A stretch of DNA of 64,000 bases from assembly GCF_039634785.1 (NCBI RefSeq), contig NZ_JBBIAB010000006.1:62001-126000 (forward strand), read 5' to 3'. Shown piece by piece: positions 47,966-63,066 of this stretch. The position numbers and the translations under genes are program-made. The first letter of the stretch is position 1. Each line of letters starts with the position of its first letter. The DNA is from Tistrella mobilis. Lineage in GTDB: Bacteria > Pseudomonadota > Alphaproteobacteria > Tistrellales > Tistrellaceae. The notes beneath the pieces are model-generated. The model did no database searches. It had not been told where the DNA came from and worked only from the letters and a program-made list of their open reading frames with translations.

Positions 47966-48802
47966 ATGGATGCCAGAAAGCTGCTCGACCAGGTGATGGG
48001 GGCGGCGTCGTCCCGCAGCGCGCAGGGCGGCAGGCTGCCCTCGGGCCATTCCTCCGGGGGGCTCCCCTCGGGGCTGGGCGACATGCTGGGCAAGGTGACC
48101 GGCGGTGCCAGGGGTGGCGGCGGTGCCGGTGGACTCGGGTCGATGATGGGTGGGTTCGGCGGCGGCGCCGTGACCGGCGGGCTGGTGGGGCTCCTGTTCG
48201 GCAACAAGAAGGCCCGCAAGACCATGAAGAAGTTCGGCGGCGGTGCGCTCGGCTATGGCGGCGCCGCGGTGCTGGGCGCGCTGGCCTATCGGGCCTGGGC
48301 CGACTGGCGGTCGGGCAAGGCGCCCGAGGCCGCGGTGCCGGCCCGGCCCGATGATGCGGCGGCCGCAGAGCCCGCTTTCCGGCCGCTCGACACCATCACC
48401 GACCCGGCCGAGGCCGAAGGCTTCGCGATGGCGGTGCTGAAGGCGATGATCGGCGCGGCCAAGGCCGACGGCCATATCGATGCCGACGAGCGCGGCCGGA
48501 TCTTCGCCGAGGTGGAGCGCCGCGATTTCGACCCAGAGACCAAGGCGGCGATCTTCCAGGTGCTGGATGCGCCGGTCTCGATCCCCGACATCGCCGCCGC
48601 CGGTACCGACGAGGCCCGGGCGGCCGAGATCTGGCTGGCGGCGCGGCTGGCGGTGGATGTCGACCATCCGGCCGAACGGGTCTGGCTGGACGCGCTGGCC
48701 CATGGGCTGAAACTGCCGGCGCCACTGGTGGAGCATCTGGACCGTCAGGCGGTGATCGGGCTCAACGATCCGGGCCAGGAGATGGATCCGGCGCGGAACT
48801 GA
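47966..48802 (+). CDS. DUF533 / TerB-like inner-membrane protein (YebE-like)
   Basis: 278-aa protein. The N-terminal third is Gly-rich, with MMGGFGGGAVTGGLVGLLFG and a second glycine-rich hydrophobic stretch GALGYGGAAVLGALAYRAW. The C-terminal half is a helical TerB-like domain (ADGHIDADERGRIFAEVE, acidic residues as in a metal-binding loop). This is the layout of YebE/DUF533 proteins, whose function is unknown though often envelope-stress related. ATG 47966 follows AGGGAGA. The 3' end overlaps the convergent LysR gene by 41 bp. Confidence 0.82.
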   Translation: MDARKLLDQVMGAASSRSAQGGRLPSGHSSGGLPSGLGDMLGKVTGGARGGGGAGGLGSMMGGFGGGAVTGGLVGLLFGNKKARKTMKKFGGGALGYGGAAVLGALAYRAWADWRSGKAPEAAVPARPDDAAAAEPAFRPLDTITDPAEAEGFAMAVLKAMIGAAKADGHIDADERGRIFAEVERRDFDPETKAAIFQVLDAPVSIPDIAAAGTDEARAAEIWLAARLAVDVDHPAERVWLDALAHGLKLPAPLVEHLDRQAVIGLNDPGQEMDPARN

Positions 48803-49715
48803 TCGCGGCATCGATCCGGGCTTCGAGCCAGTCGAGGCCCGGATCGGGCGCAGACGCGGCCCGGCGCATGATGCCGAGGTCATAGCCCGCCAGCGGCAGC
48901 GGCGGCGGGCAGAGTGCTACGCCGAAGCGCGCGGCATGGCGGCGGGCCACACGCTCGGGCAGGGTGGCGACCAGATCGCTGTCGGCGACGACGGCAAGCG
49001 CCCCCATGAAATGTGGCACGGCCGCCACCACCCGGCGCGACAGGCCGCGTTTCGCCAGCTCGTCGTCGATGGTGCCGGCGAGGTCGCCTGCGGCCGACAC
49101 CAGGATATGGGCGAGGGCGGTATAGGTGGCGAGGTCGGGCGGGCCGTCGGCGAAGGCCGGATGGCCGTGGCGCGCGGCCAGCACATAGCCTTCGTGGAAC
49201 AATACCCGGCAGATCAGCCGGGCGGGATCGTGGCTGGCAAGCCCGATCATCAGATCCACCTCGCCCTCCAGCAGGGCGCGGACCGCCCGGGCGCGGCCGA
49301 AGCTGAGGAAGGCGAGGCCGAGGCCCGGCGCCTCGGCCGCGAGCCCCGCGACCAGCCGCGGGCCGATCACCGACACCATGTTGTCGAAGGCGGCCACCCG
49401 GAACACCCGCTGTGCGGTCCGCGGGTCGAAGCCGCGTGCCGTGCCGATGGTGGCGGCGAGCGCTTCGAGTGCGGCGCGCACCGGGCCGGCCAGGGCCAGG
49501 GCCACGGGGGTGGGCTCGATCCCGCCCGCGCGGCGCAGGAAGAGCGGGTCGCCATAGATGTCGCGCAGCCGCCCCAGCGCATGGCTGATGGCCGAGGGGG
49601 TGAGGCCCAGCCGCTCGGCCACAAGGGTCAGCCGGCGGTGCTTCAGCGCCTCGTCGAGCACCAGCAGCAGGGTCGGATCCAGCCTGCGAAATTGAACAGG
49701 ATCGAAATCGGTCAT
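48762..49715 (-). CDS. LysR-family transcriptional regulator
   Basis: 317-aa LysR regulator with the helix-turn-helix VAERLGLTPSAISHALGRLRDIYG (in part; residues about 32-55) and a C-terminal periplasmic-binding-like effector domain. It is closest in style to the NodD/NahR-type group with FRRLDPTLLLVLDEAL at the start. It is divergent from a flavodoxin-fold quinone reductase 98 bp away, the usual sign that it controls that gene. Confidence 0.9.
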   Translation of the reverse strand: MTDFDPVQFRRLDPTLLLVLDEALKHRRLTLVAERLGLTPSAISHALGRLRDIYGDPLFLRRAGGIEPTPVALALAGPVRAALEALAATIGTARGFDPRTAQRVFRVAAFDNMVSVIGPRLVAGLAAEAPGLGLAFLSFGRARAVRALLEGEVDLMIGLASHDPARLICRVLFHEGYVLAARHGHPAFADGPPDLATYTALAHILVSAAGDLAGTIDDELAKRGLSRRVVAAVPHFMGALAVVADSDLVATLPERVARRHAARFGVALCPPPLPLAGYDLGIMRRAASAPDPGLDWLEARIDAAISSAPDPSPGPDR

Positions 49716-49813
49716 GAAGCCATTTCGGTTGGGTTCATCTTTCTCCGGTTCTACACCTTGAAGGGACCGGCGGGCCAGCCGCCGGCAAACTGCCGCAACC
49801 GGAGACCCGCCCC

Positions 49814-50482
49814 ATGCATGCCCTCATCGTCCTCTCCCATCCCGAACCGCAGAGCTTCAACGCGGCTATGGCGCGGCAGGCCGCCGCCGCGCTGACCCGG
49901 GCCGGCCATACGGTCGATCTGGCCGATCTGCATGCCGAAGGCTTCGATCCGGTCTCGGACCGGCGGAATTTCACCACCACCGCCGATCCCACCTATCTGA
50001 AGCTTCAGGCGGAAGAGATGCAAGCCACCGGCGCAGGCGGCTTCGCCCCCGATCTGGAGCGCCAGATCGCCAGGCTGGAGGCGGCGGACCTGCTGATCCT
50101 GCAGTTTCCGCTCTGGTGGTTCGGCCTGCCGGCGATGCTGAAGGGCTGGGTGGATCGCAGCTTCGCCATGGGCCGGATCTATGGCGACGGGCGGATGTAC
50201 GACACCGGCCGGTTCCGCGGCCGGCGGGCGCTGCTGTCGCTGACCACGGGCGGGGCACCGGCCGGCTATACGCCCGAGGGGCTGCATGGCGATATCGACG
50301 GCGTGCTCCGCCCCATCCGCCGCGGCATTCTGGAATTCGTGGGCTTCGACGTGCTCGCCTCGGAAGTGGTCTGGCAGCCGGCACGGCTGACAGAGGCGGA
50401 GCGCGCGGCGGCGCTGGACCGCTGGGCGGCGCGGCTGGCGGGGATCGGGACCGAGACGCCCGAGGGCGCCGGGCGGTACTGA
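49814..50482 (+). CDS. NAD(P)H:quinone oxidoreductase (NQO1/MdaB-like flavodoxin fold)
   Basis: 222-aa FMN/FAD flavoprotein. The N-terminal phosphate-binding loop is LIVLSHPEPQSFNAAM and the isoalloxazine-binding segment is LQFPLWWFGLPAMLKGWVDR. It carries out two-electron reduction of quinones or similar electrophiles in the cytoplasm, which protects against redox cycling. Control by the divergent LysR protein is likely. Confidence 0.9.
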   Translation: MHALIVLSHPEPQSFNAAMARQAAAALTRAGHTVDLADLHAEGFDPVSDRRNFTTTADPTYLKLQAEEMQATGAGGFAPDLERQIARLEAADLLILQFPLWWFGLPAMLKGWVDRSFAMGRIYGDGRMYDTGRFRGRRALLSLTTGGAPAGYTPEGLHGDIDGVLRPIRRGILEFVGFDVLASEVVWQPARLTEAERAAALDRWAARLAGIGTETPEGAGRY

Positions 50483-50516
50483 TCCGGTCCGGGCTCTGGT
50501 CAGGCATAAGTCCGGG

Positions 50517-52028
50517 TCAGGCGCAGGCGGCGGCGCGGTCGCGGCTGCGGCCCAGCATCACGAAGACCACGAGGGCGGTTGCGAGCGTAACCGCGGCCAG
50601 GATCAGCAGCAGCAGGTCGAAGGCGGCATCGAAATGCGCGAGCAGGGCCGCCTGGCTCTGCCCGGGCAGGGCTGCGAGGGCGGCCGCGGCATCGCCCGCC
50701 ACCAGCCGGCGGGCGGCGAGGCGGGTGGCGTCCATCGGCCCGGCGCCGGCCAGCTGCGCAAGGGTGAGGCCCGAGAGCAGGGCGCCGACCACCGCCAGCG
50801 CGATGCCTTCGCCCGCCACGCGGATGGTGGAGAAGATGCCGGTCGCCATGCCGGCCCGGTCGCTGGCGACCACGCTGACCGCCAGCCCGTCCATCAGCCC
50901 CCAGGGCAGGCCGATGCCGATGCCGATGGTGACCAGCGGGCCGATCAGGGCCTGCGGCGCGGCATCGGCCGGCAGCAGGGCGGCCCAGGCGAGGCCGGCG
51001 GCGTTGATCACCAGCCCGCCGCCGCAGAGCCGGGCGGGAGAGATCCACCGCGCCGCCCGGCCGGCGAGCAGCGGCACCACCAGCAGCGGCGCCGACAGTG
51101 CGATCATCATCCGGCCGGCCCCGGTCGCGGTCATGCCGTCGAGGCCGACGAAGCGCACCGGCAGCAGCACCAGCAGCACCACGAAACCATAGGCCGGGGC
51201 GGCGGCGAGCAGCTGCACGCCGGCAAAGCGCGGGTTGCGGAACAGCGACAGATCGAGCATCGGCCGCGCCTGCCGGGCTTCGATGCGGATGAAGCCCCGG
51301 ATGCCCGCCAGCGTGCCGGCCAGCAGCAGGATCACCAGCGGATCGCCCCAGCCGGTTTCCGGCGCCCGGAGGGTTGCGAAGGTCAGAAGCGTAAGGGTGA
51401 GGGTGAAGACGACCGCCCCCGCCCGATCGAGCCCGGTGGCGGCGGGATCACGGCTTTCGGTGAGCGCCCGGGCGCCGGCAAGACAGGCGGCGAGGCCGAG
51501 TGCCGCCACCAGCGCAAAGATCATCCGCCAGCCCGCGGCATCGATGATCGCGCCCGAGGCGATGGGGCCGAAGGCGAGACCGACGCCGAAGGCGGTGCCG
51601 ACCAGGCTGAAGGCCCTGAGCCGCGCGGGCCCCTCGACCGTCTGGGCGAGGGCCGCCATGCCGCCCGAGAAGGCGGCGGCCGCCGCCAGCCCCTGGGCCG
51701 CGCGGGCGAGATCGAGGGTGAGGATATCGGGGGCGAGCCCGGCCGCCAGCGAGGCGAGGGCGAAACCGCCGGTGCCGGCAAGAAATACGCGCCGGCGGCC
51801 ATGGGCATCGGCGAGCGCACCGGCGGCCATCAGACAGGCGCCGAAGGTGAGCATGAAGGCATTGGTCACCCAGGCGAGGGCGACCGGCGAGCCGCCGAGA
51901 TCGCGGGCGATCGCCGGGAGCGCCACTGCCGTGCCGGTGAAGGTGAGCGGCATGGCCGCCGCCGCGAGACAGACGGCAGCAAGCGCCGCCCCGGGACGGA
52001 TGCGCGGGCGGTTGATCACGGAGGTCAT
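50517..52028 (-). CDS. MFS drug/metabolite exporter (DHA2-like, about 14 TM)
   Basis: 503-aa transporter. The N-terminus MTSVINRPRIRPGAALAAVC leads into TM1, and motif C-like GTAFGVGLAFGPIASGAIID in TM5 marks proton antiporters. LADAHGRRRVFLAGT is the motif A loop between TM2 and TM3. Two extra central segments suggest 14 TM. It is divergent from a LysR gene that shares a strong palindrome, so induction by its own substrate is likely. Substrate unknown. Confidence 0.88.
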   Translation of the reverse strand: MTSVINRPRIRPGAALAAVCLAAAAMPLTFTGTAVALPAIARDLGGSPVALAWVTNAFMLTFGACLMAAGALADAHGRRRVFLAGTGGFALASLAAGLAPDILTLDLARAAQGLAAAAAFSGGMAALAQTVEGPARLRAFSLVGTAFGVGLAFGPIASGAIIDAAGWRMIFALVAALGLAACLAGARALTESRDPAATGLDRAGAVVFTLTLTLLTFATLRAPETGWGDPLVILLLAGTLAGIRGFIRIEARQARPMLDLSLFRNPRFAGVQLLAAAPAYGFVVLLVLLPVRFVGLDGMTATGAGRMMIALSAPLLVVPLLAGRAARWISPARLCGGGLVINAAGLAWAALLPADAAPQALIGPLVTIGIGIGLPWGLMDGLAVSVVASDRAGMATGIFSTIRVAGEGIALAVVGALLSGLTLAQLAGAGPMDATRLAARRLVAGDAAAALAALPGQSQAALLAHFDAAFDLLLLILAAVTLATALVVFVMLGRSRDRAAACA

Positions 52029-52114
52029 GTCCGATGGGTCCCATGCGTGGAAGAGGAGCAAGAGAGGGCGGGACCAGGATGATCAGGATCTGCCATGGCT
52101 GGAACCGGGCCCGG

Positions 52115-52137
52115 TTTCCGTCCAGACTGGACGGAAA
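52115..52137. promoter_or_regulatory. Perfect palindrome between MFS and LysR genes (candidate LysR operator)
   Basis: The 11-base arms TTTCCGTCCAG (52115-52125) and CTGGACGGAAA (52127-52137) are separated by a single A. The site is 87 bp from the MFS start codon and 25 bp from the LysR start codon, right for autorepression plus exporter control. The AT-rich stretch beyond it (AATTCCGGAATC) may extend the promoter. Confidence 0.75.
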
Positions 52138-52161
52138 TTCCGGAATCAGGGGGTTGATGCC

Positions 52162-53055
52162 ATGGACCGCTTGGGCAGCCTGACCGCTTTCGTGCGCACC
52201 GCCGATCTGGGCAGTTTCGCCGCCGCCGGCCGGGTGCTGGGCCTGTCGGCCTCTGCCGTCGGCAAGGCGGTGACGCGGCTGGAGCAGGAGATGGGTGTGC
52301 GGCTGCTGGCCCGGTCGACCCGCGCGCTGAGCCTGACCGATGAGGGGCGGGTCTTCCACGAGCGCTGCCGGCGGATCCTGGACGATCTGGACGACGCACG
52401 GGCGGTTCTGTCGCGGTCGCGGGAGGTGCCGCGCGGCCGGCTGAAGGTCAGCCTGCCGATCGTGACCTATCATCTGCTGATGCCGGTGCTGCCCGATTTC
52501 GTGGCCGCCCATCCGGAGATCGAGCTGGAGATGGATTTCAACGACCGGCTGGTCGACCTGATCGACGAGGGCGTCGATGTGGCGATCCGCAGCGGCGACC
52601 TGCCGGATTCCCGGCTGATGACCCGGGCGCTGCGCCCCTTTCAGCTGCTGCTGTGCGCGGCACCCGCCTATCTGGCGGCGGCAGGGCAGCCCGAATGCCC
52701 GCGCGACCTGGACGGCCACCGGGCGGTGCGCTTCCGTTTTCCGAACAGCGGCCGGTTGCAGCCCTGGCCGCTGAGACTGCCCGCGGGTGCGGCGGAGCCG
52801 CGGCCGCGGACGGTGATGGTCTGCAACAATATGGAGGCGCTGAAAGGGGCGGTGACCGGCGGCCTGGGTATCGGCTGCATGCCCGATTTCCTGGCCGCCG
52901 CCCCGATCGTCGAAGGCCGGCTGGTGCCGGTGCTGACCGGGCATCTGGACCTGCCCGGCCAGTTCCGCCTGCTCTGGCCGTCAAGCCGGCATCTGTCGCC
53001 CAAAGTGCGGGTGTTCGTGGATTTCGTGGGCACGCGGCTGTTTGCGGCGGGCTGA
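52162..53055 (+). CDS. LysR-family transcriptional regulator
   Basis: 297-aa LysR regulator. The helix-turn-helix is FAAAGRVLGLSASAVGKAVTR (in part; residues about 18-38), followed by RLLARSTRALSLTDEG. The C-terminal effector domain contains MDFNDRLVDLIDEGVDVAIRSG (in part), typical of the large AaeR/PecT-like subgroup. ATG 52162 begins MDRLGSLTAFVR. It is divergent from the MFS exporter and separated by the palindrome at 52115-52137. Confidence 0.92.
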   Translation: MDRLGSLTAFVRTADLGSFAAAGRVLGLSASAVGKAVTRLEQEMGVRLLARSTRALSLTDEGRVFHERCRRILDDLDDARAVLSRSREVPRGRLKVSLPIVTYHLLMPVLPDFVAAHPEIELEMDFNDRLVDLIDEGVDVAIRSGDLPDSRLMTRALRPFQLLLCAAPAYLAAAGQPECPRDLDGHRAVRFRFPNSGRLQPWPLRLPAGAAEPRPRTVMVCNNMEALKGAVTGGLGIGCMPDFLAAAPIVEGRLVPVLTGHLDLPGQFRLLWPSSRHLSPKVRVFVDFVGTRLFAAG

Positions 53056-53070
53056 GGGGGGCGCGTCCCC

Positions 53071-54342
53071 TCAAGTCGGAAGCCATGCCCTGAGCAGCGG
53101 TGGCAGGGAGGCTGTCTCCAGGCCGAACGCGCCCGGCAGCGTGGCAAGGATCCAGTTGCCGCCGGTATTGCCCTCCAGCATCACCATGCCGCGGGTGGAG
53201 GGGATCAGATCCCAGTGCACCAGGGCCAGTCCCGGCAGGGCGGTCATGGCGCCGAGAGCCATGGCAACGGCATCTTCGAAGCCCGGAAGAATGCGCCCCG
53301 CGAGACGGGCGTTGTTCCAGGGCAGGCGGGGTATCGGACGGCGCGGGGCGCCCAGCAGGATGCCGGCGGCAAGGCGGCCACTTGCGGGATCGACCGGCAC
53401 CTGGATCCCGCCGTGCAGGAAGTCGCGCGGGTGGCGGTCCGGAACCGGGACCGTCAGCAGGGCTGACTGCAGGAAGGGAGCCTCGTCGGGGCGCCGGGCG
53501 GTGGCCAGCCGGAGGACGGGCGCACGGCCCGCCGTGGCCAGATCGGCGAGGGCGGTACAGGGCGCAAGATGTTCCTGGACCAGCAGGTCATCGGCCTCCA
53601 GCAGTCGGTTCAGCCGGGCAGCCAGGGCAGTGGCATCGACCGGCCGAGCGTCGATCTGCCAGCCACCGCAGTCATGACGGAGCCTGAAGGCACCGGCACC
53701 GCCATGGCCATGGCGCGGTTTGAGGAACAGCCCCGCGCTGGCCGGTGCCACCGGAACGAGCCGGTCGGGATCGACACCCTGTCCCTGCGGGAGCACGACC
53801 GGCGTCGCCGGAAAAACGGCACCCGCTGCGGTCAATCGTGCCGCTGCGGCCATCTTGTCGGCAAGCAGGGCATGAGCGGCCGGATCGCCCAGCCGGGCGA
53901 GCAGCAGAGAGGCGGCCCTCTGCGGCAGCGGGTTGCGACCGCCATGCAGTCCCCGCCATAGATCGACATCCAGCGGCGTGCCGCCAGTCGCGATGCAATC
54001 GCGGTAGAGGCGCCATGCAGCCCCGGCGCCGAGGCCTCTGCGTCGCGCATACCGGCAACAGACTGCGCTCGCGGCCAGCGGGTGAGCTGTACGGTCGCCA
54101 AGTCGGAGAAGGAGACGCAGAAGCGCCGGCCGCTTCTGCCGCCACGAGGCGGCAGACCACTCCCTCAGATCTGCAAGATCAGGATCGGAAGAGGCCCGCC
54201 AGCCTTCTCCGTCCCAGGGCAGACCCCGCCACCAGTCGCCGGGTGTCCGGGCACTGAGGGCCTCAGGAGCCGGGCTTGAGGAAGGGGATGCCTTCGACGC
54301 CGGAGGTTCCGGTACCGGTGGTGAAGGCGGATACGTCGGCAT
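53071..54342 (-). CDS. ATP-grasp ligase-like protein linked to the lasso precursor
   Basis: 423-aa protein with an ATP-grasp fold of the kind often annotated as sugar-transfer-associated. The lid/ATP region is GLFLKPRHGHGGAGAFRLR (about residue 210), then LLVQEHLAPC. The metal-binding end is ALVHWDLIPSTRG with VMLEGNTGGNW, giving the expected Asp and Glu-x-Asn ligands. Residues about 45-190 are helical and unassigned. The only standard start codon before the domain is ATG 54342, which lies inside the precursor gene, so the two genes overlap by 80 bp in different frames and share a strand. ATP-grasp enzymes make carboxylate-amine or -thiol bonds, so it may add a group to the lasso peptide. That is inference. 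Confidence 0.75.
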   Translation of the reverse strand: MPTYPPSPPVPEPPASKASPSSSPAPEALSARTPGDWWRGLPWDGEGWRASSDPDLADLREWSAASWRQKRPALLRLLLRLGDRTAHPLAASAVCCRYARRRGLGAGAAWRLYRDCIATGGTPLDVDLWRGLHGGRNPLPQRAASLLLARLGDPAAHALLADKMAAAARLTAAGAVFPATPVVLPQGQGVDPDRLVPVAPASAGLFLKPRHGHGGAGAFRLRHDCGGWQIDARPVDATALAARLNRLLEADDLLVQEHLAPCTALADLATAGRAPVLRLATARRPDEAPFLQSALLTVPVPDRHPRDFLHGGIQVPVDPASGRLAAGILLGAPRRPIPRLPWNNARLAGRILPGFEDAVAMALGAMTALPGLALVHWDLIPSTRGMVMLEGNTGGNWILATLPGAFGLETASLPPLLRAWLPT

Positions 54343-54430
54343 CGTTCAGCACCGGCTTTTGCCAGGGCTTGCGTGCCCCATGGCTGTCCGTTGCATCAGT
54401 GGAGTATATAGGCACAAGAGGCTGATCCAT
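54263..54430 (-). CDS. Lasso peptide precursor (paeninodin-like)
   Basis: 55-aa precursor. The leader (residues 1-38) contains KPWQKPVL at 21-28, the W/Y-x-x-P-x-L element that RRE proteins recognise, followed by DV and by Thr37-Thr38 just before the core. Thr at -2 is the classical cleavage determinant. The predicted 17-residue core is GTGTSGVEGIPFLKPGS (residues 39-55): Gly1 would close an 8-residue macrolactam with Glu8, leaving the tail GIPFLKPGS. The C-terminal residue is Ser, the site that lasso kinases phosphorylate, and a kinase gene is divergent from it. Start ATG 54430 has AGGAAG about 10 nt upstream. Longer in-frame extension upstream is not leader-like. Confidence 0.88.
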   Translation of the reverse strand: MDQPLVPIYSTDATDSHGARKPWQKPVLNDADVSAFTTGTGTSGVEGIPFLKPGS

Positions 54431-54479
54431 GCTATGTGCGCTTCCTGAAGAGCGAGAAGATGGAACTAAGTATAGTGTT

Positions 54480-54498
54480 ATAGGACGATGTGTCCTAT
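54480..54498. promoter_or_regulatory. Inverted repeat in the lasso divergent promoter region
   Basis: ATAGGAC (54480-54486) and GTCCTAT (54492-54498) flank GATGT. The 110-bp intergenic region separates precursor and kinase genes and is much more A/T-rich than its surroundings. A TATAGT (54471-54476) on the plus strand, overlapping TATACT on the minus strand, could be -10 elements, but no good -35 pairs with them. Confidence 0.4.
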
Positions 54499-54540
54499 GG
54501 AGAATATTCAGAGGGGGGCACGAGGGGAAAGATTCTCCAT

Positions 54541-55482
54541 ATGCGTGACACGGCATTTATCTATAGAACGTCAGGGTTGTTGACCCGGTCTGGAGTCTCT
54601 TTCGCCGGAGCCGTCCCGCAGAAGGATGCCGGGCGCAATCGGCCCGATGTGATCGTCATGCGGGGGGATTGTCCCGCCAGCCTGGACGCGCCTCGTCATC
54701 GCGGCCCCTGCTGGGCTGTGGACCAACGGCACCTGCTGCTCGACCTGCCGGGGGTCGGCCGGCTGCTGGCGGCCGATGGCGAGCGGGTGACCCTCGATCC
54801 GGCACCGGGTGTCCCGGTTGACGACATGGCGGCGTTCGCGGCCGGGATCGGTCTGTCGGCCATTCTTCATCAGCGCGGCACGGGGCTGGTGCTGCAGGCG
54901 TCGGCCGTGCTCCTGGATGGCCGGGCCCATCTGTTCTGCGGCCCGCCCGGGTCGGGGAAGTCGACGCTGGCGGCGGCGTTGTGCCAGGTCGGCGGGGGGC
55001 TTGTCGCCGACGACCGCTGCGTGATAGAGCCGGCGGAGCCGGTTCTGGTCCATCCCGAGGGGCTGGGCCTTCAGTTGCGGTCGGATGCCTTGTCGTGGCT
55101 GGGTCTGGAAGACCGGTCCTGCACACCGGTACGTGGAAGGGGGGCGAAGGTGGTACTTGGCCCGCCGGAGCACACGCCGTCGACAGTACCCCGGCCTGCC
55201 GCGCCTGTGCCCGTGGCGTCCATCCAGGTCATGGCTGACATTCCCGGCGATGGGATGGCCATGATGACGCGCCTGCCGGCCCTGCCGGCCGCACAGCTGC
55301 TGCTGAACCAGATCCATGCCCGGCGCCTTGCCCTGGCCTGGCCGGCCCGGGTGCAGCCGGCGGGCAGGATCGCGGCAGTGCTCAATCACGTGCCGGTCTA
55401 CCGCCTGGACCGCCCGCGCGATCTACGCCGCCTGGGCGAGACCGTCGATCTGATTCTGGCCATGTCGGCCGACATGGCGTGA
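54541..55482 (+). CDS. HprK-like lasso peptide kinase
   Basis: 313-aa protein of the HPr kinase/phosphorylase-related family. The P-loop is [16 protein letters not shown] (about residues 137-152) and the following acidic motif is LVADDRCVI. It lacks the N-terminal domain and PTS context of true HprK. In paeninodin-type clusters such kinases phosphorylate the C-terminal serine of the precursor, and the precursor here ends in Ser. ATG 54541 was chosen over a GTG at 54490 because AGGGGAAA lies about 11 nt upstream. The next gene begins 10 nt after its stop. Confidence 0.85.
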   Translation: MRDTAFIYRTSGLLTRSGVSFAGAVPQKDAGRNRPDVIVMRGDCPASLDAPRHRGPCWAVDQRHLLLDLPGVGRLLAADGERVTLDPAPGVPVDDMAAFAAGIGLSAILHQRGTGLVLQASAVLLDGRAHLFCGPPGSGKSTLAAALCQVGGGLVADDRCVIEPAEPVLVHPEGLGLQLRSDALSWLGLEDRSCTPVRGRGAKVVLGPPEHTPSTVPRPAAPVPVASIQVMADIPGDGMAMMTRLPALPAAQLLLNQIHARRLALAWPARVQPAGRIAAVLNHVPVYRLDRPRDLRRLGETVDLILAMSADMA

Positions 55483-55492
55483 GGTGCAAGAG

Positions 55493-56344
55493 ATGGCATC
55501 CTTCCCCGCCGGCGCCGTCTGGCTCGCGTCTTATCCCAAATCAGGCAATACCTGGATGCGGGTGTTGCTTGCCAATCTCATGGCGGGCGATGCGGCCCCC
55601 GTTGATATCAATGCCCTGCCCGACGACTACGCCGTGACGTCGCGACGGCAGTTCGCCGAGCATATGCTGATCGATGCCGACCTCCTGACCCCGGATGAGC
55701 TGGAGCGGCTCCGTCCCGCGTTCAATGTGGCGGTGTTCCAGCCTCTCGAAGGGCCGGCCTTCTGCAAGACCCATGACCCGTTTTTCGGCAGGGGCGGAGC
55801 CGGCAGGGCGCGTGTGCCGGTATTGGGAACGGCGGCACGGGCGGCGGTCTATCTGATCCGGGATCCTCGGGATGTGGCGATTTCCTTTGCGCATCACATG
55901 GGTGCCGATATCGATGAGGCCATCCGGCGGATGGGTGATGGATCGGCCGTCATGGGCAGTGCCGCGCAGCTTTCCCATCACCTGGGTGACTGGGCTGGCC
56001 ATGTCGAAAGCTGGGCCCGTCAGGATCTGGTGCCGGTGGCGGTGATCCGTTACGAAGACCTTCGCCGGGACACACATGGTTGTTTTGCCGCGATGCTGAA
56101 CCGGCTGGGCGTCGTGGCGACAGCGGCGGAGATCGATCGGGCCGTTGCTCATTCCAGCCTGAAGGCGCTGCAAGGTCAGGAAAGTCTGGCCGGCTTCCGC
56201 GAGCGGCTGCCGGGCCAGGGCCGGTTTTTCCGGTCGGGACGCGTGGAGGGATGGCGCGACGTGCTGAGCACGGCGCAGATCCGGGCGATCGAGGATCAAT
56301 GCGCCGCGACCATGATACGCTGGGGATACGCCCTGGCGGGTTGA
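55493..56344 (+). CDS. PAPS-dependent sulfotransferase (lasso tailoring candidate)
   Basis: 283-aa sulfotransferase. The 5'-phosphosulfate-binding loop is ASYPKSGNTWMRVLLANL (residues about 11-28), and the 3'-phosphate-binding motif is LIRDPRDVAISFAHH, followed by VIRYEDLRRD. The C-terminal GRVEGWRDVLS is also typical of this family. It would transfer sulfate from PAPS to a hydroxyl. The predicted core has no Tyr, so Ser or Thr would be the acceptor if the peptide is the substrate. ATG 55493 is preceded by GAGGTG. It lies between kinase and RRE genes on one strand. Confidence 0.87.
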   Translation: MASFPAGAVWLASYPKSGNTWMRVLLANLMAGDAAPVDINALPDDYAVTSRRQFAEHMLIDADLLTPDELERLRPAFNVAVFQPLEGPAFCKTHDPFFGRGGAGRARVPVLGTAARAAVYLIRDPRDVAISFAHHMGADIDEAIRRMGDGSAVMGSAAQLSHHLGDWAGHVESWARQDLVPVAVIRYEDLRRDTHGCFAAMLNRLGVVATAAEIDRAVAHSSLKALQGQESLAGFRERLPGQGRFFRSGRVEGWRDVLSTAQIRAIEDQCAATMIRWGYALAG

Positions 56345-56393
56345 TCCCGGCGGGTGATCCATGTGGCCTGTTCCCTTTCTCCGGGATGATCCG

Positions 56394-56660
56394 ATGACCG
56401 AGATCCTGCGCCGCGCAGACGACGTTTCCGCCGTAACAGGCGACGGCGAGACGCTGCTGCTGAACCTCTCCACAGGCCTCTGGCACGGTCTGGACCCGAT
56501 CGCAGCACGGATCTGGGAGATGCTCGCCGAGCCGATGGATGCAGACGGCCTTGTCGCCCGCCTGGTGGCCGAATACGAGGTGACGCCCGAGACCTGCCGG
56601 GCGGAGATCATTCCGCTGCTCGACCGGATGCGGGCGCGCGGCCTGCTGGCCGGAGGCTGA
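56394..56660 (+). CDS. Lasso RRE protein (B1, PqqD-like)
   Basis: 88-aa stand-alone RiPP recognition element of the PqqD fold. The sequence moves from a beta-hairpin (LLLNLSTGLWHGLDPIAARIW, in part) into a winged helix (LVARLVAEYEVTPETCRAEI), the standard B1 pattern. It binds the leader motif and presents the precursor to the protease and cyclase. ATG 56394 is preferred; an ATG at 56361 would add 11 residues. The cyclase gene starts 4 nt after its stop. Confidence 0.88.
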   Translation: MTEILRRADDVSAVTGDGETLLLNLSTGLWHGLDPIAARIWEMLAEPMDADGLVARLVAEYEVTPETCRAEIIPLLDRMRARGLLAGG

Positions 56661-56664
56661 CCCG

Positions 56665-58593
56665 ATGCGGCTGATCTGCGGCATGCTCCGGCTGGATGGG
56701 CAGGCGGCTTCAGACCGGCATCTGGATGCCATGGCCGCGGGGCTGACCGCGCCGGGCACAAACCCCGGCCTGTCGCGCCATATCGACGGCCCGCTGGGGT
56801 TGGCGGTGCTGGATTTCACCGGCGGCACCACCGGTCTGGTCCGGCGGGAGGGGTTGGTTCTGGCCCTGGATACAAGGCTCGATCGGGGCATCACGGACGA
56901 GGGCGCCGCCGTCATCGGCGCGATCCGCCAGCACGGGGCCGATTTTCCCGATCATCTGCATGGTGATTTTGCCGTGGCGGCCTGGGATGAGGCGCGCGGA
57001 GAGCTGATCCTGGGCCGGGACTATATCGGCGTCCGGCCACTGGCCTGGACCCTGCAGCCCGGCCGTTGTCTTGCCTTTGCCAGCCTGCCGGCCGGGCTGA
57101 TCGCAGCGTCACCCGAACGGGCCGCGCCCGATCCGGTCGCACTGGGCCTGCTGCTGGTTCACGGCTATTTCGTCGGCGCCGATACCGGCCATGCGGGCAT
57201 CGCCATGCTTCAGGCGGGGCACAGCCTTACCGTGCGGCCAGGAGAGGGCCGGCCCCCCCGCCTGCACCGCGCCTATCGGCCCGATCCGCGTCTGGTCGGG
57301 CGCTGGCGTGGCGACCGGCACGAGGCGGCGGCCAGATTGCGTGATCTGGTGACTGAGGCCGTGAACGACCGCTTGCCCCCGCAGGGCGTCGTCGCCAGCC
57401 ATCTGACCGGTGGGCTCGACAGTTCGGCTGTGACCGTGCTGGCGGCGCGCGGCATGCGGGAACGCGGCGGCCGGATACTGGCACTCAGCAAGCTGATGCC
57501 GACTGCCATGGGGCCGGCTGAACTGGATGAGCGGCCGCTGATCGCTGCCGTGCTGGCGCAGGAGCCGGATATCGTTCATGCCGGGGCGCCGGATCTGCTG
57601 CCCCTGCCATCCCAGCCCCAGCATCCCGACTGGCCAGGGCTGCCGCTGGACGGGCCGGAGGATGACATGGCTGCCGCTGCGGCCGCCTTTGGCGCCGATC
57701 GCATCCTGAGCGGTGTGGGGGGCGATGAAGGCGCCAGCTATCACGGTGCCAATCTTTATGCCCGGCTGCTGCGCGACGGCTGGCTGAGGACGCTGGCGCG
57801 CGAATTGCCGGCGCGGGCAAGACGGGATGGAGTCAGCCTGAAGCAGGCGGTGCGCGGCCGGTTGATCGGGCCCCTGCTGCCGGACGGTCTTGCCCGCAGG
57901 CTGGGGGTATCGGTCGGTCGGGGCCAGCTTTATGGTTCGTCGAAGGGGGTGGCCCGCTTTCTCGCTCCGGGACTCCGCGACGCGGTCGAGGCCCGACGGA
58001 TGCGGAAAGTCCTGGTCAGCAACGACCCCGAAGAGCGGGTGGCTGCCTTTGCCGACCACCACATCCCCTCGCGCTGCAGCTTCTATGCGATCACTGCGGC
58101 ACGGCGCGGGCTGGCAGCCTCGTTCCCGCTGCTCGATCGCCGGGTGGTCGACTTCGTCCTGTCGCTGCCGGCAGGCCTCTTCCTTGACGACGGCTTCGCC
58201 CGTCAGCCCTTCCGGGCGGCGATGGACGGCATCCTGCCCGATGTGGTGCGGCTGAAAGCGGACAAGGTCGGGCTCTATGACGATCGCTTCATTCGCTATG
58301 CCGACCACCGCGCCGCCCTGCTGGCAGAGGTGGACCGGCTGGCGGCACGGAGGTCGGAGATCGTCTGCCGGCTCTTCGACCTGACTGAGATCCGCGCCGC
58401 GCTGACCCTGTTACCCGATGCGGCCAACGCGCTTGATTTCGTGCGGGCGCGACCCGGCGACCTTCACGGCGGCGTGCCGCCCTGGCTGCCGCTGATCGCG
58501 GTGCACTGCCTGATAGTTGCGCGGCATCTGGACGATCATGCGGCAGTCAAAGGTGGGGGGGACGGCATCGCCCCCGCCCGCAATCCATCCTGA
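56665..58593 (+). CDS. Lasso cyclase (C protein, asparagine synthetase-like)
   Basis: 642-aa protein with a glutamine-amidotransferase-like N-terminal half (residues about 1-210) and an asparagine-synthetase ATP-pyrophosphatase half (about 225-600). The PP-loop is SHLTGGLDSSAVTVLA. The N-terminus is MRLICGML, so the Cys2 nucleophile of real glutamine-dependent synthetases is absent, as in lasso cyclases that adenylate the Asp/Glu side chain instead. It should form the Gly1-Glu8 isopeptide bond. GGAGG precedes ATG 56665. The 3' end overlaps the convergent methyltransferase gene by 47 bp. Confidence 0.88.
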   Translation: MRLICGMLRLDGQAASDRHLDAMAAGLTAPGTNPGLSRHIDGPLGLAVLDFTGGTTGLVRREGLVLALDTRLDRGITDEGAAVIGAIRQHGADFPDHLHGDFAVAAWDEARGELILGRDYIGVRPLAWTLQPGRCLAFASLPAGLIAASPERAAPDPVALGLLLVHGYFVGADTGHAGIAMLQAGHSLTVRPGEGRPPRLHRAYRPDPRLVGRWRGDRHEAAARLRDLVTEAVNDRLPPQGVVASHLTGGLDSSAVTVLAARGMRERGGRILALSKLMPTAMGPAELDERPLIAAVLAQEPDIVHAGAPDLLPLPSQPQHPDWPGLPLDGPEDDMAAAAAAFGADRILSGVGGDEGASYHGANLYARLLRDGWLRTLARELPARARRDGVSLKQAVRGRLIGPLLPDGLARRLGVSVGRGQLYGSSKGVARFLAPGLRDAVEARRMRKVLVSNDPEERVAAFADHHIPSRCSFYAITAARRGLAASFPLLDRRVVDFVLSLPAGLFLDDGFARQPFRAAMDGILPDVVRLKADKVGLYDDRFIRYADHRAALLAEVDRLAARRSEIVCRLFDLTEIRAALTLLPDAANALDFVRARPGDLHGGVPPWLPLIAVHCLIVARHLDDHAAVKGGGDGIAPARNPS

Positions 58594-59581
58594 ACGGACC
58601 GAAGGCGGTTTCGACCAGACGGCTGTCGATGCGGGTGAAGCCGGCCCTGGCCATGGCGGCGGCGATGGCGCCGTCGTCGAAAGAGCGGTCCTGGCCGCGG
58701 AGCGCCGGGACCAGGCGGCCGGTGACATGGGTTTCGGGGGCGGTGCGTTCGGCCGTCAGCGCCTCGTGCAGGGTGACGAAGACCCCGCCGGGGGCGAGGG
58801 CCCGGCGGATGCGGGCCAGCACGCCCGCCAGATCGCGGGCGTAATAGAGCGTCATCGATGTCCAGACGATGTCGTAGCCGGCGCCGAAACCGGTGTCGTT
58901 CATGTCGCCGGCGATGACGGTGACCGGGCGGCCGTTCAGCCGGGCGCGGATGCGGTCCGCCATCGGCGGCAGGTCGAAGACGGTGATGTCGAGCTGCGGG
59001 TGCCGGTCGGCCAGGCGGCAGGCCAGCACCTCGGACCCGGCCCCCAGATCGAGCAGGCGGCGCGCCGAGGGCCATTCGGGCAGGCGGGCGAGGAGGTCGA
59101 GCGCGGTATCGGCGCCCATTGCCCGGTGGAAGGCCCTGAGGCTGTTGGCCGAGCCGTCCCAGAAGCCGGGCGATGCCATGTCGGGGGCGGGCACGGGGCC
59201 CGGATCCTTGAGCAGGCCGGCGACGTCGCCATGGCGGAGCCGGGGCAGGGTGAGCAGCAGATCGCGCATGGAGCCTGCGCCATCGGCCCTGAGCAGCGGT
59301 GCGGCTTCGGCGGTGAGGCCATAGCGGCCATGGGTCTTGTCGAGCAGGCCCATGGCGGCGAGGCCGTCGAGCACACGGCCGAGCCGGGTGGCATCAAGGC
59401 CGAGGGGATCTGCGAGATCGGCGGCGGTTGCCGGCGGGTCGAGCCGGTCGAAAAGGCCGAGATCGAGCGCACAGGCGAGCAGCTGCCAGCGCAGCGGCGC
59501 CTGGATCAGATCGAACAGCCGGCCGGCGAGGCCGTCACGGCCGGGGGTCTCGATGACGGGAAGCGTGCGATTGCGCATCAC
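58547..59581 (-). CDS. SAM-dependent methyltransferase (O-methyltransferase/hydroxyneurosporene type)
   Basis: 344-aa methyltransferase with an N-terminal winged-helix dimerisation domain (residues about 15-95, WQLLACALDLGLFDRL) and a C-terminal Rossmann domain. SAM motif I is RLLDLGAGSEVLACRLA and the second strand gives ITVFDLPPMAD. The acceptor is unknown; relatives act on small phenolic or polyketide-like molecules. Its start overlaps the TonB-dependent receptor stop by 4 nt, so it belongs with the uptake unit to its right. It converges on the lasso cyclase, and a role in lasso tailoring cannot be excluded. Confidence 0.85.
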   Translation of the reverse strand: MMRNRTLPVIETPGRDGLAGRLFDLIQAPLRWQLLACALDLGLFDRLDPPATAADLADPLGLDATRLGRVLDGLAAMGLLDKTHGRYGLTAEAAPLLRADGAGSMRDLLLTLPRLRHGDVAGLLKDPGPVPAPDMASPGFWDGSANSLRAFHRAMGADTALDLLARLPEWPSARRLLDLGAGSEVLACRLADRHPQLDITVFDLPPMADRIRARLNGRPVTVIAGDMNDTGFGAGYDIVWTSMTLYYARDLAGVLARIRRALAPGGVFVTLHEALTAERTAPETHVTGRLVPALRGQDRSFDDGAIAAAMARAGFTRIDSRLVETAFGPFRMDCGRGRCRPPHL

Positions 59582-61698
59582 CAGCTGGCCTTTACCTGAA
59601 GGCTGACCTCGCGGCCGGTGCCGTCTTCGACCAGCTGGCCGAGCGGCACGCCGACGGCGCGGGCATAGACATTGCGGTCGAAGATGTTGCTGGCCTGAAG
59701 CGAGACCTCGATGGTGCCGAAACGGTAGCCGAGGGCGGCATCGGCCAGGGCGAAGGCGTCCTGCGACAGGCTGTTGGCGCCGTCGAAGTAATAGGGGCCG
59801 GAGCCGTTGGCGGCGATCAGGCCGAACCAGCCGTCGCCGCCGGCGGGGCCGCCCTGGTCGTAGCGGAGCCCGGCCGACCAGGTGGCCTCTGCCGCCATCG
59901 GCAGGCGGTTGCCGGAATAGTCGACCGGGACCAGCGTGCCGCCGCGGTTGACGGTGGTGCGATAAGAAGTGGCCTCGGCCTTCTGGAGGCCGCCGGTGGC
60001 GAACCAGCCCCAGACCTCGTCGATCCGGCCGTCGAGGGCGAGTTCGGCGCCGTAGATGCGGGCCTCTGCGGCATTGCTGATGGTGGTGACGCCGCCGGGT
60101 TCGAGGTCCAGGATCTGGCGGTCGGTCGATGTGGTGTGGAAGAGGGCAAAATCCGCCACCATCCGCCCGCCGAACAGCGCGGTCTTCACACCCGCCTCGG
60201 CTGTCCAGCTGTGTTCGGCGCCATAGGTCAGGTTGCCGGGACCTGTGGCATTGCCGTAATTGTAGCCGCCGGGCAGATAGCCGCGGGCGTAAGAGGCGTG
60301 GAGCATCGTGTCCGGCGCCACATCCCAGGCGAGCGAGATTTTGGGCAGAAGCGTGGTGTCGGTGATGTCGGCATCGAAGCTGCTTTGGCCGGCAGCCCTG
60401 CTCAGCCGCATCCGGCCGCTCTGGTCGATCCGCTCCACCCGCGCACCCAGGGTGACGCGCAGATCCTGTGTCAGGCCGTATTCCGCCTGGCCGAAGCCGG
60501 CGATGCCGGTCTGGTCGATCGAGGTCTCGCGCGCCACCCGCGGCGTGCCGATGCGGAAATCGAGATCGGTGCGGCTGACATAGCCGTAAAGCCCGGCGAG
60601 CCAGCGCAGCCGCGCGCCATCATCGGGCGAGGCGATGCGCAGTTCCTGCGAGACGGTGTCGTCCTTGTGGGAAGAGAGCGTCGGCAGGGTGGGGAGCGGC
60701 GTGCCGTCCAGATCCATCCGGAAATCGCGGGTATAATGCGTCCAGCCGGTGATGGCGGTGATGTCGACCGGCCCGGCGCGATGGTCGATGCGCAGCGACT
60801 GGATGGCGGTCACCGTATCGTCCCACGAGGCGGCGTCGTAACTGGTGACGTAGCGCGGCGTGGCATAGGGGCCGGTCAGGAAGCGCAGCCGCTGCTTGCC
60901 GAGATCGGCCCGCTCCACGACGCTTTTGAGCGAGATGTCGGTGTCGTCGTCGGGCAGCAGGGTCAGCCCGCCCGAAAAGGTCAGCCGGTCGGTGGAAGCG
61001 CCGTCATCGGCGCCATCGGCGAGGTTGAGGCCGGGACCGCGGGCCTGTTCTGCCCGAAGCGCCAGCGACGCCGCCGCCTTGTCGGGCGCGATGGCGCCCG
61101 AGACCCGGCCGCTGATCGTCCAGGCCGGGCTCCAGCCGTCGGCGCCGTCTTCGAACCCCAGGATGGCGCGGGCTTCGGCCCCGCTCTGCCAGTCGGGATC
61201 GGCGGTGCCGGTGCGGATCAGCCCGGCCTCGGTGTTGCGGCCGTACAGGCTGCCCTGGGGGCCTTTCAGGATCTCCATGCTGCCGGGATCGGGCAGGCGC
61301 GGCGCCTGCACCGCGCCATGGGGCAGGGCCACGTCGTTGACCGTGAAGCCGAGCGGATCCTGCAGGGCGGTGTTGGCGACGGTCATGCCGCGCATCACCA
61401 CCCGGGTCTGTACCGAGGACTGTTCGATCAGCACATTGGGCGTGTGCCGGGCGATGCCCGCCAGGCCGTTCGCGAGCGGGCCGGCCTGATCTTCGGGCGT
61501 CAGCAGATCGACCGTGCCGGGGGTGCGGCGGACATCTTCGGTCCACTGGCGCGCCTCGACCATCACGGGGGCGAGGCGGGTGACGGTCTCGTCCTCGTCG
61601 GCCCGGGCCGCCCCCGTGACGAGCGTCGTGCCGCCGGCCAGCAGCATGGGGACGGCGGAGGCGAGCAGGCGGGTGCGGACCCTGCGATGCGTGGTCAT
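59578..61698 (-). CDS. TonB-dependent outer-membrane receptor
   Basis: 706-aa receptor. The signal peptide is RLLASAVPMLLAGGTTLVTG with cleavage likely after ARA (residue about 33). The plug domain spans about residues 50-165 with VVMRGM, SMEILKGPQGSLYGRNTEAG. The barrel follows, with SLAWDVAPDTMLHASYARGY and ASNIFDRNVYAR. The C-terminus ends in a terminal aromatic (KASW), as outer-membrane barrels do. It imports a siderophore, vitamin or other chelate using TonB energy. A repeated 19-bp element lies 81-99 bp upstream of its start. Confidence 0.93.
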   Translation of the reverse strand: MTTHRRVRTRLLASAVPMLLAGGTTLVTGAARADEDETVTRLAPVMVEARQWTEDVRRTPGTVDLLTPEDQAGPLANGLAGIARHTPNVLIEQSSVQTRVVMRGMTVANTALQDPLGFTVNDVALPHGAVQAPRLPDPGSMEILKGPQGSLYGRNTEAGLIRTGTADPDWQSGAEARAILGFEDGADGWSPAWTISGRVSGAIAPDKAAASLALRAEQARGPGLNLADGADDGASTDRLTFSGGLTLLPDDDTDISLKSVVERADLGKQRLRFLTGPYATPRYVTSYDAASWDDTVTAIQSLRIDHRAGPVDITAITGWTHYTRDFRMDLDGTPLPTLPTLSSHKDDTVSQELRIASPDDGARLRWLAGLYGYVSRTDLDFRIGTPRVARETSIDQTGIAGFGQAEYGLTQDLRVTLGARVERIDQSGRMRLSRAAGQSSFDADITDTTLLPKISLAWDVAPDTMLHASYARGYLPGGYNYGNATGPGNLTYGAEHSWTAEAGVKTALFGGRMVADFALFHTTSTDRQILDLEPGGVTTISNAAEARIYGAELALDGRIDEVWGWFATGGLQKAEATSYRTTVNRGGTLVPVDYSGNRLPMAAEATWSAGLRYDQGGPAGGDGWFGLIAANGSGPYYFDGANSLSQDAFALADAALGYRFGTIEVSLQASNIFDRNVYARAVGVPLGQLVEDGTGREVSLQVKASW

Positions 61699-61739
61699 GG
61701 GCGTCTCCGGAAGGCGCTGGATGAGATGGGGCGAGGCTA

Positions 61740-61762
61740 GCGCCCGAGAGCGCCGCGGGCGC
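61740..61762 (-). other. GC hairpin between MFS and receptor genes
   Basis: GCGCCCG (61740-61746) pairs with CGGGCGC (61756-61762) around AGAGCGCCG in the 85-bp gap. No T run follows. It could be an intercistronic mRNA structure lying between the candidate AraC site and the receptor start. Confidence 0.35.
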
Positions 61763-61768
61763 CCTTAT

Positions 61769-61798
61769 GGCGAACGCCCGCCGTCATCCGGCGAAAGC
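61769..61798 (-). promoter_or_regulatory. Candidate AraC operator upstream of the receptor gene
   Basis: CGCCGTCATCCGGCGAAAG (61779-61797) matches the copy upstream of the MFS gene in 18 of 19 positions. Within this copy, GGCGAACGC (61769-61777) and GGCGAAAGC (61790-61798) are direct repeats 21 bp apart, two helical turns, as AraC-family proteins prefer. The site covers the MFS stop codon. Confidence 0.65.
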
Positions 61799-62977
61799 TT
61801 CGGTGCGGCGGCGGAAGGCGAGGCCGGCGATGGCCGCGAGCAGGGCCGCGCCCGCCCACCAGGGGGCGGTGGGGGAGAGCTGGTGCAGCGTGGCGCCGAG
61901 CATCGGACCCGCCGCCATGGCGAGGCCCTGGGCCATACCGTTGATGCCGGCGGCGCGGGCCTGGCCGCCCGCAGGGGTGGCGAGGCTGAGCCCGGCGAGG
62001 TTGCCGGGCAGCAGCAGGCCGAAACCGGCGCCGAGCAGCACCATGGCGAGCTGCAGCCAGAGGATGGTGGGGGCAGCGGCGGCGGCCGTCATGGCCATCA
62101 GGCCGAGCAGCGCGCCCGTCTGCACCAGGCGGGCGGGTGCCCAGGCCAGACGGCCGATCACCAGGCCCTGGGTTGCGACCATGGCGAGGGTGGTGAGGGC
62201 GAGAAGCGCGCCGCCGCGCTCGATCGAGGCGGCGGCACCCAGGCCGAACTGGTCCTGGAGGCGAAGCGCCGTCACCTGCTGAAGCTGGGCATAGGCGGCA
62301 AGCCCGGCGAAGGTGACGACAAGAAAGGGCAGAAGCCGCCCGAGCGGCGGGCGCTGCGCGGCGGGTGCGGTTGCAAGGGCAGGTGCCGGCCGCGGCGCCG
62401 CCCGCAGCAGCAGCGCGACCAGAAGCGTGCCGGCGGCGATGGCGAGGCAGAGGATCAGCAGTGCCGCGACCGGCGAGGCGCCGCCCAGACGCCAGGCCGT
62501 CATACCGCCCAGGATCGAGCCCAACCCGAAGGCGGCGCCCATCATCCCCATGCCCCCGGCGCGCCGGTCGCGGGCGGTGACATCGGCCAGGAACCCCTGG
62601 GCTGCGGGCATGATCCCGGCCGACAGGGCGGCCTGAACCAGCCGGGCCGCGAGCAGCAGGACATAGGCGCGGCCGGCATCGAGCCGGCCGGCATCAAGGG
62701 CGTCGAGAACCGCGGCGAGCAGGGCGGGGAAGAGCGCCGCGGCGGCGAGCCCCGCCACCAGCACCGGCCGGCGCCCGATCCGGTCGGCGACATGCCCCCA
62801 GACGGGGCCTGCCACCACCATCAGCAGGGCGGAGAGGCCGAGCAGCAGCCCGGTTTCGACATCGCCGAAACCGCGGGCGCGGCCGAGCGGCGGCAGGGTG
62901 ATCAGCAGAAAGGCATGGCCGGCGCCGTTGGCGGTGAGGGCGGCAAGCAGGGCGGCGATCGCGGGACGGGTCGACAT
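61784..62977 (-). CDS. MFS transporter (12 TM)
   Basis: 397-aa major-facilitator protein starting MSTRPAIAALLAALTANGAG (ATG 62977); codons before it look non-coding and contain the candidate operator. Motif A is VWGHVADRIGRRPVLVAG between TM2 and TM3. The gene sits between the AraC regulator and the receptor, as exporters do in siderophore loci, so it may export the apo-chelator or import the loaded one across the inner membrane. No siderophore biosynthesis gene is visible in the window. Confidence 0.87.
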   Translation of the reverse strand: MSTRPAIAALLAALTANGAGHAFLLITLPPLGRARGFGDVETGLLLGLSALLMVVAGPVWGHVADRIGRRPVLVAGLAAAALFPALLAAVLDALDAGRLDAGRAYVLLLAARLVQAALSAGIMPAAQGFLADVTARDRRAGGMGMMGAAFGLGSILGGMTAWRLGGASPVAALLILCLAIAAGTLLVALLLRAAPRPAPALATAPAAQRPPLGRLLPFLVVTFAGLAAYAQLQQVTALRLQDQFGLGAAASIERGGALLALTTLAMVATQGLVIGRLAWAPARLVQTGALLGLMAMTAAAAAPTILWLQLAMVLLGAGFGLLLPGNLAGLSLATPAGGQARAAGINGMAQGLAMAAGPMLGATLHQLSPTAPWWAGAALLAAIAGLAFRRRTEAFAG

Positions 62978-63027
62978 GGGGGCAGCGGGCTCCGGATGGG
63001 CGGTCTGCGGATGACCATGCCCGGTCC

Positions 63028-63057: not shown

Positions 63058-63066
63058 GCGGGGGCG

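Follow-up and report, generated by a model that had tools for sequence, protein, structure and literature searches.

The stretch of Tistrella mobilis DNA analysed here (the window, 64,000 nucleotides) carries a lasso-type biosynthetic cassette that lacks a gene for its own leader peptidase, B2. The gene content of the cassette, the absence of B2 from it, an empty site on a T. mobilis plasmid and the presence of one B2 gene over the model cut-off in each of three Tistrella genomes are shown. Also shown is a family of precursors with a common leader motif, an acidic residue at core position 8 and a C-terminal Ser. We consider it likely that B2 is supplied from elsewhere in the genome and that the product is closed by a ring between Gly39 and Glu46, with cleavage, cyclization, threading and modification all inferred. 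The missing B2 is the most unusual feature of the locus, and a preliminary description of the precursor, made from sequence alone, was silent on it.

Cassette genes and boundaries

The precursor gene (54263–54430, minus strand; 55 aa plus stop) encodes MDQPLVPIYSTDATDSHGARKPWQKPVLNDADVSAFTTGTGTSGVEGIPFLKPGS, and the reading in the preliminary description matches this sequence. The assignment rests on the ORF, on AGGAAG upstream of the ATG at 54430, on a match to the family HMM (E 3.2e-14, with its own sequence included in the model) and on an orthologue. This orthologue, in a second Tistrella genome (G002), reads GTGTSGIEGPSFLKPGS. It differs at 8 of 55 residues and retains WxxPxL, Thr-Thr, Gly1, Glu8 and the final Ser. 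Promoter-like hexamers, AGGACA-16-TATACT, lie 5′ of the precursor (54469–54496, minus), identified by a consensus scan only with 9/12 matches.

An ATP-grasp protein is encoded 3′ of the precursor (53071–54258, minus; PF14397 ATPgrasp_ST, 2.2e-14, over cut-off). Its start is ambiguous, with an in-frame ATG at 54342 falling inside the precursor gene, and the ORF as listed in G002 is shorter (351 aa from GTG). Running divergently from these two genes are four others, all on the plus strand. The first encodes an HprK-like kinase (54541–55482; TIGR04352 HprK_rel_A, 2.2e-9, and PF07475, 0.006, both below cut-off), and the second a sulfotransferase (55493–56344; PF00685, 2.1e-23, over cut-off) whose best solved relatives are TEG12 and Teg14. 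The third encodes the B1 protein, a PqqD-type RiPP recognition element (RRE; 56361–56660; PF05402, 4.6e-16, over cut-off), with a lasso PqqD chaperone (9x90) and TbiB1 (5v1u) as best solved relatives. The fourth encodes the C protein, a lasso-type macrolactam cyclase of the asparagine-synthetase family (56665–58593; PF00733, 1.3e-21, over cut-off).

Against the lasso reading, the cyclase, B1 and HprK proteins all fall under the NCBIfam cut-offs. The B1 protein matches NF033536 lasso_PqqD_Bac at 7.9e-14, below cut-off. The best NCBIfam match of the C protein is NF033535 lass_lactam_cya (1.5e-43), at 149 bits against a cut-off of 525. No protein in the three Tistrella genomes exceeds this cut-off, and NF033535 also finds matches in 6 of 14 control genomes; the model therefore does not sharply separate lasso cyclases. 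PADLOC gave a single weak match on the window, to the kinase, and alignment-free structure predictions were poor (mean pLDDT 35.6 for the HprK-like kinase and 36.1 for the ATP-grasp protein). A contig scan with the cyclase found no relative, with records near the window's own possibly excluded, and a PLSDB plasmid protein search with the precursor found no match.

The limits of the cassette come from an empty site. In plasmid pTM3 of T. mobilis KA081020-065 (L196), the matches to window 48000–53060 (95.9%) and 58552–63644 (94.5%) lie two bases apart. Because these flanks abut without the cassette, we place it at about 53061–58551, or ~5.5 kb. A TonB receptor, a methyltransferase, an MFS protein and a LysR protein were considered as cassette parts and rejected, since pTM3 has the corresponding flanking DNA although it lacks the cassette. 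G002 carries the cassette within a stretch 93.6% identical overall to the window. All six cassette frames are open in the window, and those of the precursor, kinase, sulfotransferase, B1 and cyclase are likewise open in G002. A Pfam search found no B2 (Transglut_core3) among the cassette proteins. In the same search the cassette proteins matched no peptidase family, SpI-like peptidases included.

The precursor family, the predicted leader cut and the predicted ring

Other PqqD and Asn_synthase loci of the window's genome (G000; the other two Tistrella genomes examined are G001 and G002) contain short ORFs that carry WxxPx[L] and terminate in Ser. A listing by leader pattern gave 18 rows. Five distinct precursors were retained, one of them listed twice, and the other 12 rows were dropped by eye as lying inside other genes or lacking the right neighbourhood. 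A sixth seed precursor, C17, was taken from a separate ORF listing. Searching all three genomes with the six-seed model yielded additional members, and a 43-sequence model at E≤0.05 gave 24, 21 and 18 matches in the three. These counts are lower bounds, with 150 of more than 400 candidates per genome scored with the 43-sequence model. Class-wide, with no more than 17 candidates scored in any genome, matches at E≤1e-4 came from at least 5 of 385 genomes. Outside Tistrella, G041 and G096 hold three matches which, read by eye, end in Ser and have an acid 8 residues past the presumed cut. The final list holds at least 71 precursor-like ORFs (23 in G000, 29 in G001 and 19 in G002), of which 69 are distinct after the leader motif.

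Two groups of matches were rejected. At C6:210270 of G000 and its two counterparts (E about 0.01) the ORFs lack family features. At C2:339598 of G000 (E 5.5e-6) the only ORF lies in a different frame or ends differently; the member looks broken and was excluded from the counts. This member (L060:5599-5724; C2:339598-339723) and L075:7410-7574 are seemingly broken or aberrant, each within an intact array.

Selection could have built some of the family features into the set. The collecting patterns required the aromatic residue and the P of the leader motif, whose first residue is W in 69 of the 71 members and Y in 2. Two patterns further demanded an acidic residue close to the end, and one of the two a terminal S or T as well. 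We therefore excluded loci from the acid-filtered patterns, which left 45 distinct sequences for an unfiltered test. Since family-derived models were used to find the loci, the ring periodicity is still not wholly selection-free.

In this unfiltered set, a Thr at −2 followed by an 8-residue ring fits 39/45 sequences, where shuffles average 8.1 and peak at 17; none of 1000 reaches 39. Rings of 8 or 9 after Thr(−2) fit 44/45. Rings 7 and 9 are no commoner than in shuffles, and rings 6 and 10 are rarer. The six seeds alone give ring 8 in five (reached by 0/1000 shuffles) and ring 8 or 9 in all six. Over all distinct members, Thr(−2) with ring 8 fits 50/69 (shuffle mean 12.5, maximum 23) and with ring 8 or 9 fits 61/69 (mean 21.0, maximum 32). 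If Ala is accepted at −2 as well, the fit rises to 68/69, but shuffles already average 36.9; seven members fit the ring only in this way, and L075:7410-7574 fits no rule. As a control, 53 other ORFs with a similar leader pattern were taken from the same loci. Only two fit ring 8 or 9, and one of the two is the window precursor with its start placed further upstream; 10 of the 53 end in Ser.

Several members (L113:7100-7300, L184, L185, L109 and L111) need Ala-Glu at −2/−1, not Thr(−2), for the ring to fit. A second cleavage specificity is one possible explanation for these Ala-Glu members.

In the window precursor, Thr37 and Thr38 precede the core region GTGTSGVEGIPFLKPGS, and Glu46 is residue 8 counted from Gly39 and residue 6 counted from Gly41. 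These claims of the preliminary description held. The leader peptide is predicted to be Met1–Thr38 (54317–54430, minus), a cut taken from the family, in which Thr(−2) mostly lies 7–8 residues past WxxPx[L] (55 of 61 distinct ring-8/9 sequences). The corresponding motif here, W23-Q-K-P26-V-L28 (54347–54364, minus), is presumed to bind the RRE, on the basis of the family motif and the paeninodin-type WxxP. The earlier proposal of a cut after Thr38 is supported: with Thr37 as the canonical Thr at −2 the gap is 8, as in the family, and with Thr38 at −2 it is 9.

If the cut fell one residue later, position −2 would be taken by Thr38 and the core would begin at Thr40, with a ring of 7. In favour of this, −2 would still hold a Thr, and rings of that size have precedents (PMC13352647). 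Against this reading, a gap of 9 is seen in 1/61 members, Thr stands at residue 1 in 2 of the 50 ring-8 members, and ring 7 does not rise above shuffle level in the family. We regard the later cut as very improbable.

With the cut at T38|G39, the predicted core is Gly39–Ser55 (54266–54316, minus), 17 residues long, with a ring from Gly39 to Glu46, inferred from the ring-8 periodicity of the family, and a 9-residue tail, GIPFLKPGS, that includes Phe, Leu and Lys. Glu46 (54293–54295, minus), at core position 8, is the predicted ring acceptor, with Asp or Glu at this position across the ring-8 members. The 50 ring-8 members have Asp (43) or Glu (7) at position 8 and mostly Gly at position 9 (41); position 1 is more varied (Gly 13, Ala 9, Leu 7, Thr 2). 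The preliminary description made its reading depend on homologues having an acid at core position 7–9. We compared the family members, and the expectation was mostly fulfilled, with few exceptions. Its expectation of an invariant Glu at position 8 failed on the residue, which is mostly Asp. The cut, the ring and the C-terminal Ser are all well supported and likely correct, as inferences from sequence alone; no mature peptide is known.

An alternative is that the ring between Gly39 and Glu46 forms and the tail remains unthreaded, making the product a branched-cyclic macrolactam, not a lasso. Tails in the fitted family span 4–10 residues, and 39 of 50 ring-8 members have tails of 5–6. In 24 of the 50, no F, W, Y, H, R or K occurs past the residue after the acid. 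Threading is doubtful for the sibling peptides because their tails are short and many lack these residues. Against this alternative for the window precursor are its core of 17 residues, where accepted lasso cores have 13–33 with rings of 7–9 (PMC13352647), and a tail with Phe, Leu and Lys. A 9-residue tail is found in only two ring-8 members, the window precursor and its orthologue. An unthreaded product is unlikely here, and we retain the lasso reading, with threading as an inference.

The C-terminal Ser55 (54266–54268, minus) is a predicted modification site, with Ser ending nearly all family members. It is found in 66/69 distinct members, and in 56/59 without the loci whose pattern demanded a final S or T. 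The Ser end is kept where no kinase gene is seen nearby, which suggests a wider role. As an inference, the conserved Ser could take part in recognition or offer a handle to other modifications. The preliminary description had proposed the terminal Ser for phosphorylation; the residue is conserved in the family, and phosphorylation is reasonable and remains inferred.

Other loci and the stand-alone leader peptidase

The 23 precursors of G000 lie in 12 loci, which were surveyed as stretches of ~11–19 kb or, for the window, as its own cassette. A cyclase gene is present at four of the 12 (window, C6:359k, C13 and C17) and a PqqD gene at five (window, C13, C17, C9:27k and C2:427k). B2 is present at none of the 12 in the stretches surveyed. 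PqqD matches in G000 total seven, one of which, C1:8079, we take to belong to PQQ synthesis, with PqqA- and PqqB-like neighbours.

The loci carry a range of tailoring enzymes. Sulfotransferases at C6:53k and two at C2:462k score 133–149 bits to that of the window. The C17 sulfotransferase (PF13469) is below cut-off, and a candidate at C6:359k scores 170 bits to it but has no Pfam match. HprK-like kinases are found at the window, at C2:427k and twice at C2:462k. 2OG oxygenases occur at C13, C17 and C9:44k, a TP_methylase at C13, two methyltransferases (CmcI, TylF) and GT41 at C2:427k, GT17 at C2:462k, PhyH at C24 and GNAT at C9:27k. The array at C2:339k has MBOAT and GDSL genes, named from the annotated counterpart array on pTM1. 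The gene table for the pTM1 array, which is incomplete, labels five sibling precursors hypothetical proteins and omits two.

Several of these loci merit separate description. L060:5287-7292 and L065:6972-8299 are arrays of five precursors each, the G000 array having four distinct cores, and no B1, C or B2 was found in those stretches. The MBOAT and GDSL genes beside the L065 array would suit acylation of a C-terminal Ser. At L022:6609-7661 (G000 C13:30608-31660), the TP_methylase protein (PF00590, 9.8e-21) has as neighbours three lasso-like precursors and genes for a PqqD protein, a lasso-type cyclase and two 2OG oxygenases. The TP_methylase may resemble borosin N-methyltransferases. At L114:2734-6272, two tandem sulfotransferase/HprK-like kinase pairs, the same enzyme pair as in the window, lie by one precursor. 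Family precursors also occur at L062:7732-9658, L023:9508-11962 and L110:289-1620, next to proteins which we take to be phage-tail-collar-like; L023 and L110 have a GNAT gene, and the L110 locus comes from a different family of the class.

One lasso-type cyclase, at C3:294k, lies apart from precursors and has counterparts in G001 and G002. This stand-alone cyclase (L117:8211-10172, L181:6262-8223 and L186:5368-7329) has similar surroundings in the three genomes. It is a candidate for a shared enzyme serving precursors without their own cyclase, and we put this forward as no more than possible.

Searching with PF13471 revealed one B2 gene in G000, on another contig (C29) than the window, and one each in G001 and G002. 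NF033537 at E≤5 again gave one B2 over cut-off per genome, with an additional weak match in G002 that is interrupted by a stop. The B2 proteins of G001 and G002 are 96 and 93% identical to that of G000. Whole-genome searches placed no PqqD or cyclase matches on C29, and in G001 and G002 the closest such matches on the B2 replicon are hundreds of kilobases off. A contig scan with B2 found one Tistrella record and four other loci. Cys104 and His140 are kept in all three Tistrella proteins and in the four relatives from other organisms; the alignment with these relatives gave no clear position for the third triad residue. Of these four non-Tistrella relatives, L193 and L194 have B2 adjoining B1 and C. 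In L192, B2 is present with no B1 or C within the stretch, and in L195, which ends close to B2, only a candidate precursor was seen. Since L192 shares this separation of B2 from B1 and C, a B2 encoded on its own may serve other purposes.

The missing B2 could mean that the cassette is a nonfunctional relic which has lost this gene. For this speak its absence, the broken-looking member C2:339598 in an array and the shorter ATP-grasp ORF of G002. Against it, six frames are open in the window and five of them also in G002, and other B1/C cassettes of the three Tistrella genomes likewise lack B2. Furthermore, Thr(−2), the acid at 8 and the Ser would hardly be kept by a relic. We consider a relic very unlikely. 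Supply of B2 in trans by the single stand-alone gene is, within the mechanism as a whole, the likely reading; it is inferred, and the pairing of enzyme and precursor is not shown.

Proposed maturation and its relation to known pathways

In the proposed pathway, the leader would be bound through W23xxP26xL28 by the B1 protein (step 1). The HprK-like kinase would then modify the linear precursor, most likely at Ser55, and the sulfotransferase and ATP-grasp enzyme may perhaps modify it as well (step 2). The stand-alone B2 cysteine peptidase would be recruited and cut between Thr38 and Gly39 (step 3). Finally, the cyclase would adenylate Glu46, and attack by the Gly39 amine would form the 8-residue ring (step 4).

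Paeninodin-type lasso leaders carry a WxxP motif (PMC13381572), and in paeninodin pathways the kinase acts on the linear precursor, placing phosphate on its C-terminal Ser (PMC9266682, PMC8498205). The Tistrella cassette resembles this Bacillota type in its WxxP leader and in combining a C-terminal Ser with a clustered HprK-like kinase gene. It differs in lacking B2, in having an ATP-grasp protein instead of a nucleotidyltransferase and in being alphaproteobacterial, with a precursor that is one of dozens dispersed. Phosphorylation of Ser55 is a reasonable possibility given the HprK-like kinase in the cassette; it rests on analogy, without phosphorylation data. BsfK, a related kinase from a different proteobacterial lasso pathway, targets Ser3 and not the C-terminus (PMC10368454). 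Sulfotransferase genes are included in some lasso clusters (PMC8498205, PMC4289311).

The cassette could instead make a linear phosphorylated peptide like the linear polyphosphorylated peptides (LPPs) of Bacillota, through its kinase and B1 and a cut by another peptidase, with the asparagine-synthetase-like protein serving, for example, in amidation. The cassette lacks B2 and has an HprK-like kinase; LPP clusters likewise pair a discrete RRE with an HprK-like kinase and use a non-B2, SpI-like peptidase (PMC13381572). However, LPP clusters have no cyclase, whereas the window cassette has one of lasso type, and LPP leaders carry YxxP (PMC13381572) where the window leader has the WxxP of paeninodin. 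A linear product would also leave the conserved acid at ring position 8 unexplained. We judge an LPP-like product highly improbable and favour the lasso-type cassette served by B2 in trans.

Parts of this layout have precedents. Caulosegnins likewise have several precursors per enzyme set and rings of 8 and 9 (PMC13352647), but theirs are three precursors in one cluster, in contrast to the 23 precursors and 12 loci of G000, none with B2. Citrulassin is a lasso pathway that needs an enzyme encoded elsewhere in the genome (PMC12971885); there the unclustered enzyme is a tailoring deiminase, whereas in Tistrella it would be the leader peptidase. Unclustered lanthipeptide proteases provide a case of a leader peptidase away from its precursor (PMC8960859), in a different RiPP class. 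Unclustered proteases for lanthipeptides and an unclustered tailoring enzyme for citrulassin were thus already known. What is new is the inferred layout, in which a single B2 apparently acts in trans for many lasso-like cassettes. A search of the open-access literature (titles and abstracts) found no report of a shared unclustered B2.

A bolder reading, which we hold no more firmly than its opposite, is a hub-and-spoke arrangement. One conserved stand-alone B2, perhaps with the conserved stand-alone cyclase, would mature the 19–29 precursors of each genome. Plug-in cassettes scattered over the replicons would each bring their own tailoring enzyme (kinase, sulfotransferase, glycosyltransferase, O-acyltransferase, oxygenase or methyltransferase), and the near-universal C-terminal Ser would be their common attachment point.

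Lasso mining commonly seeks B and C genes adjoining a precursor. Such searches could overlook a cassette that has no B2 or judge it incomplete, and likewise a precursor lacking both B1 and C in its vicinity. Conservation of the Ser end, also without a kinase nearby, suggests a shared handle for several chemistries. If the reading is true, one peptidase acting on many cores with different tailoring would provide a natural platform for combinatorial lasso biosynthesis, and it would pose a testable question, whether loss of one gene abolishes all lasso peptides of the organism.
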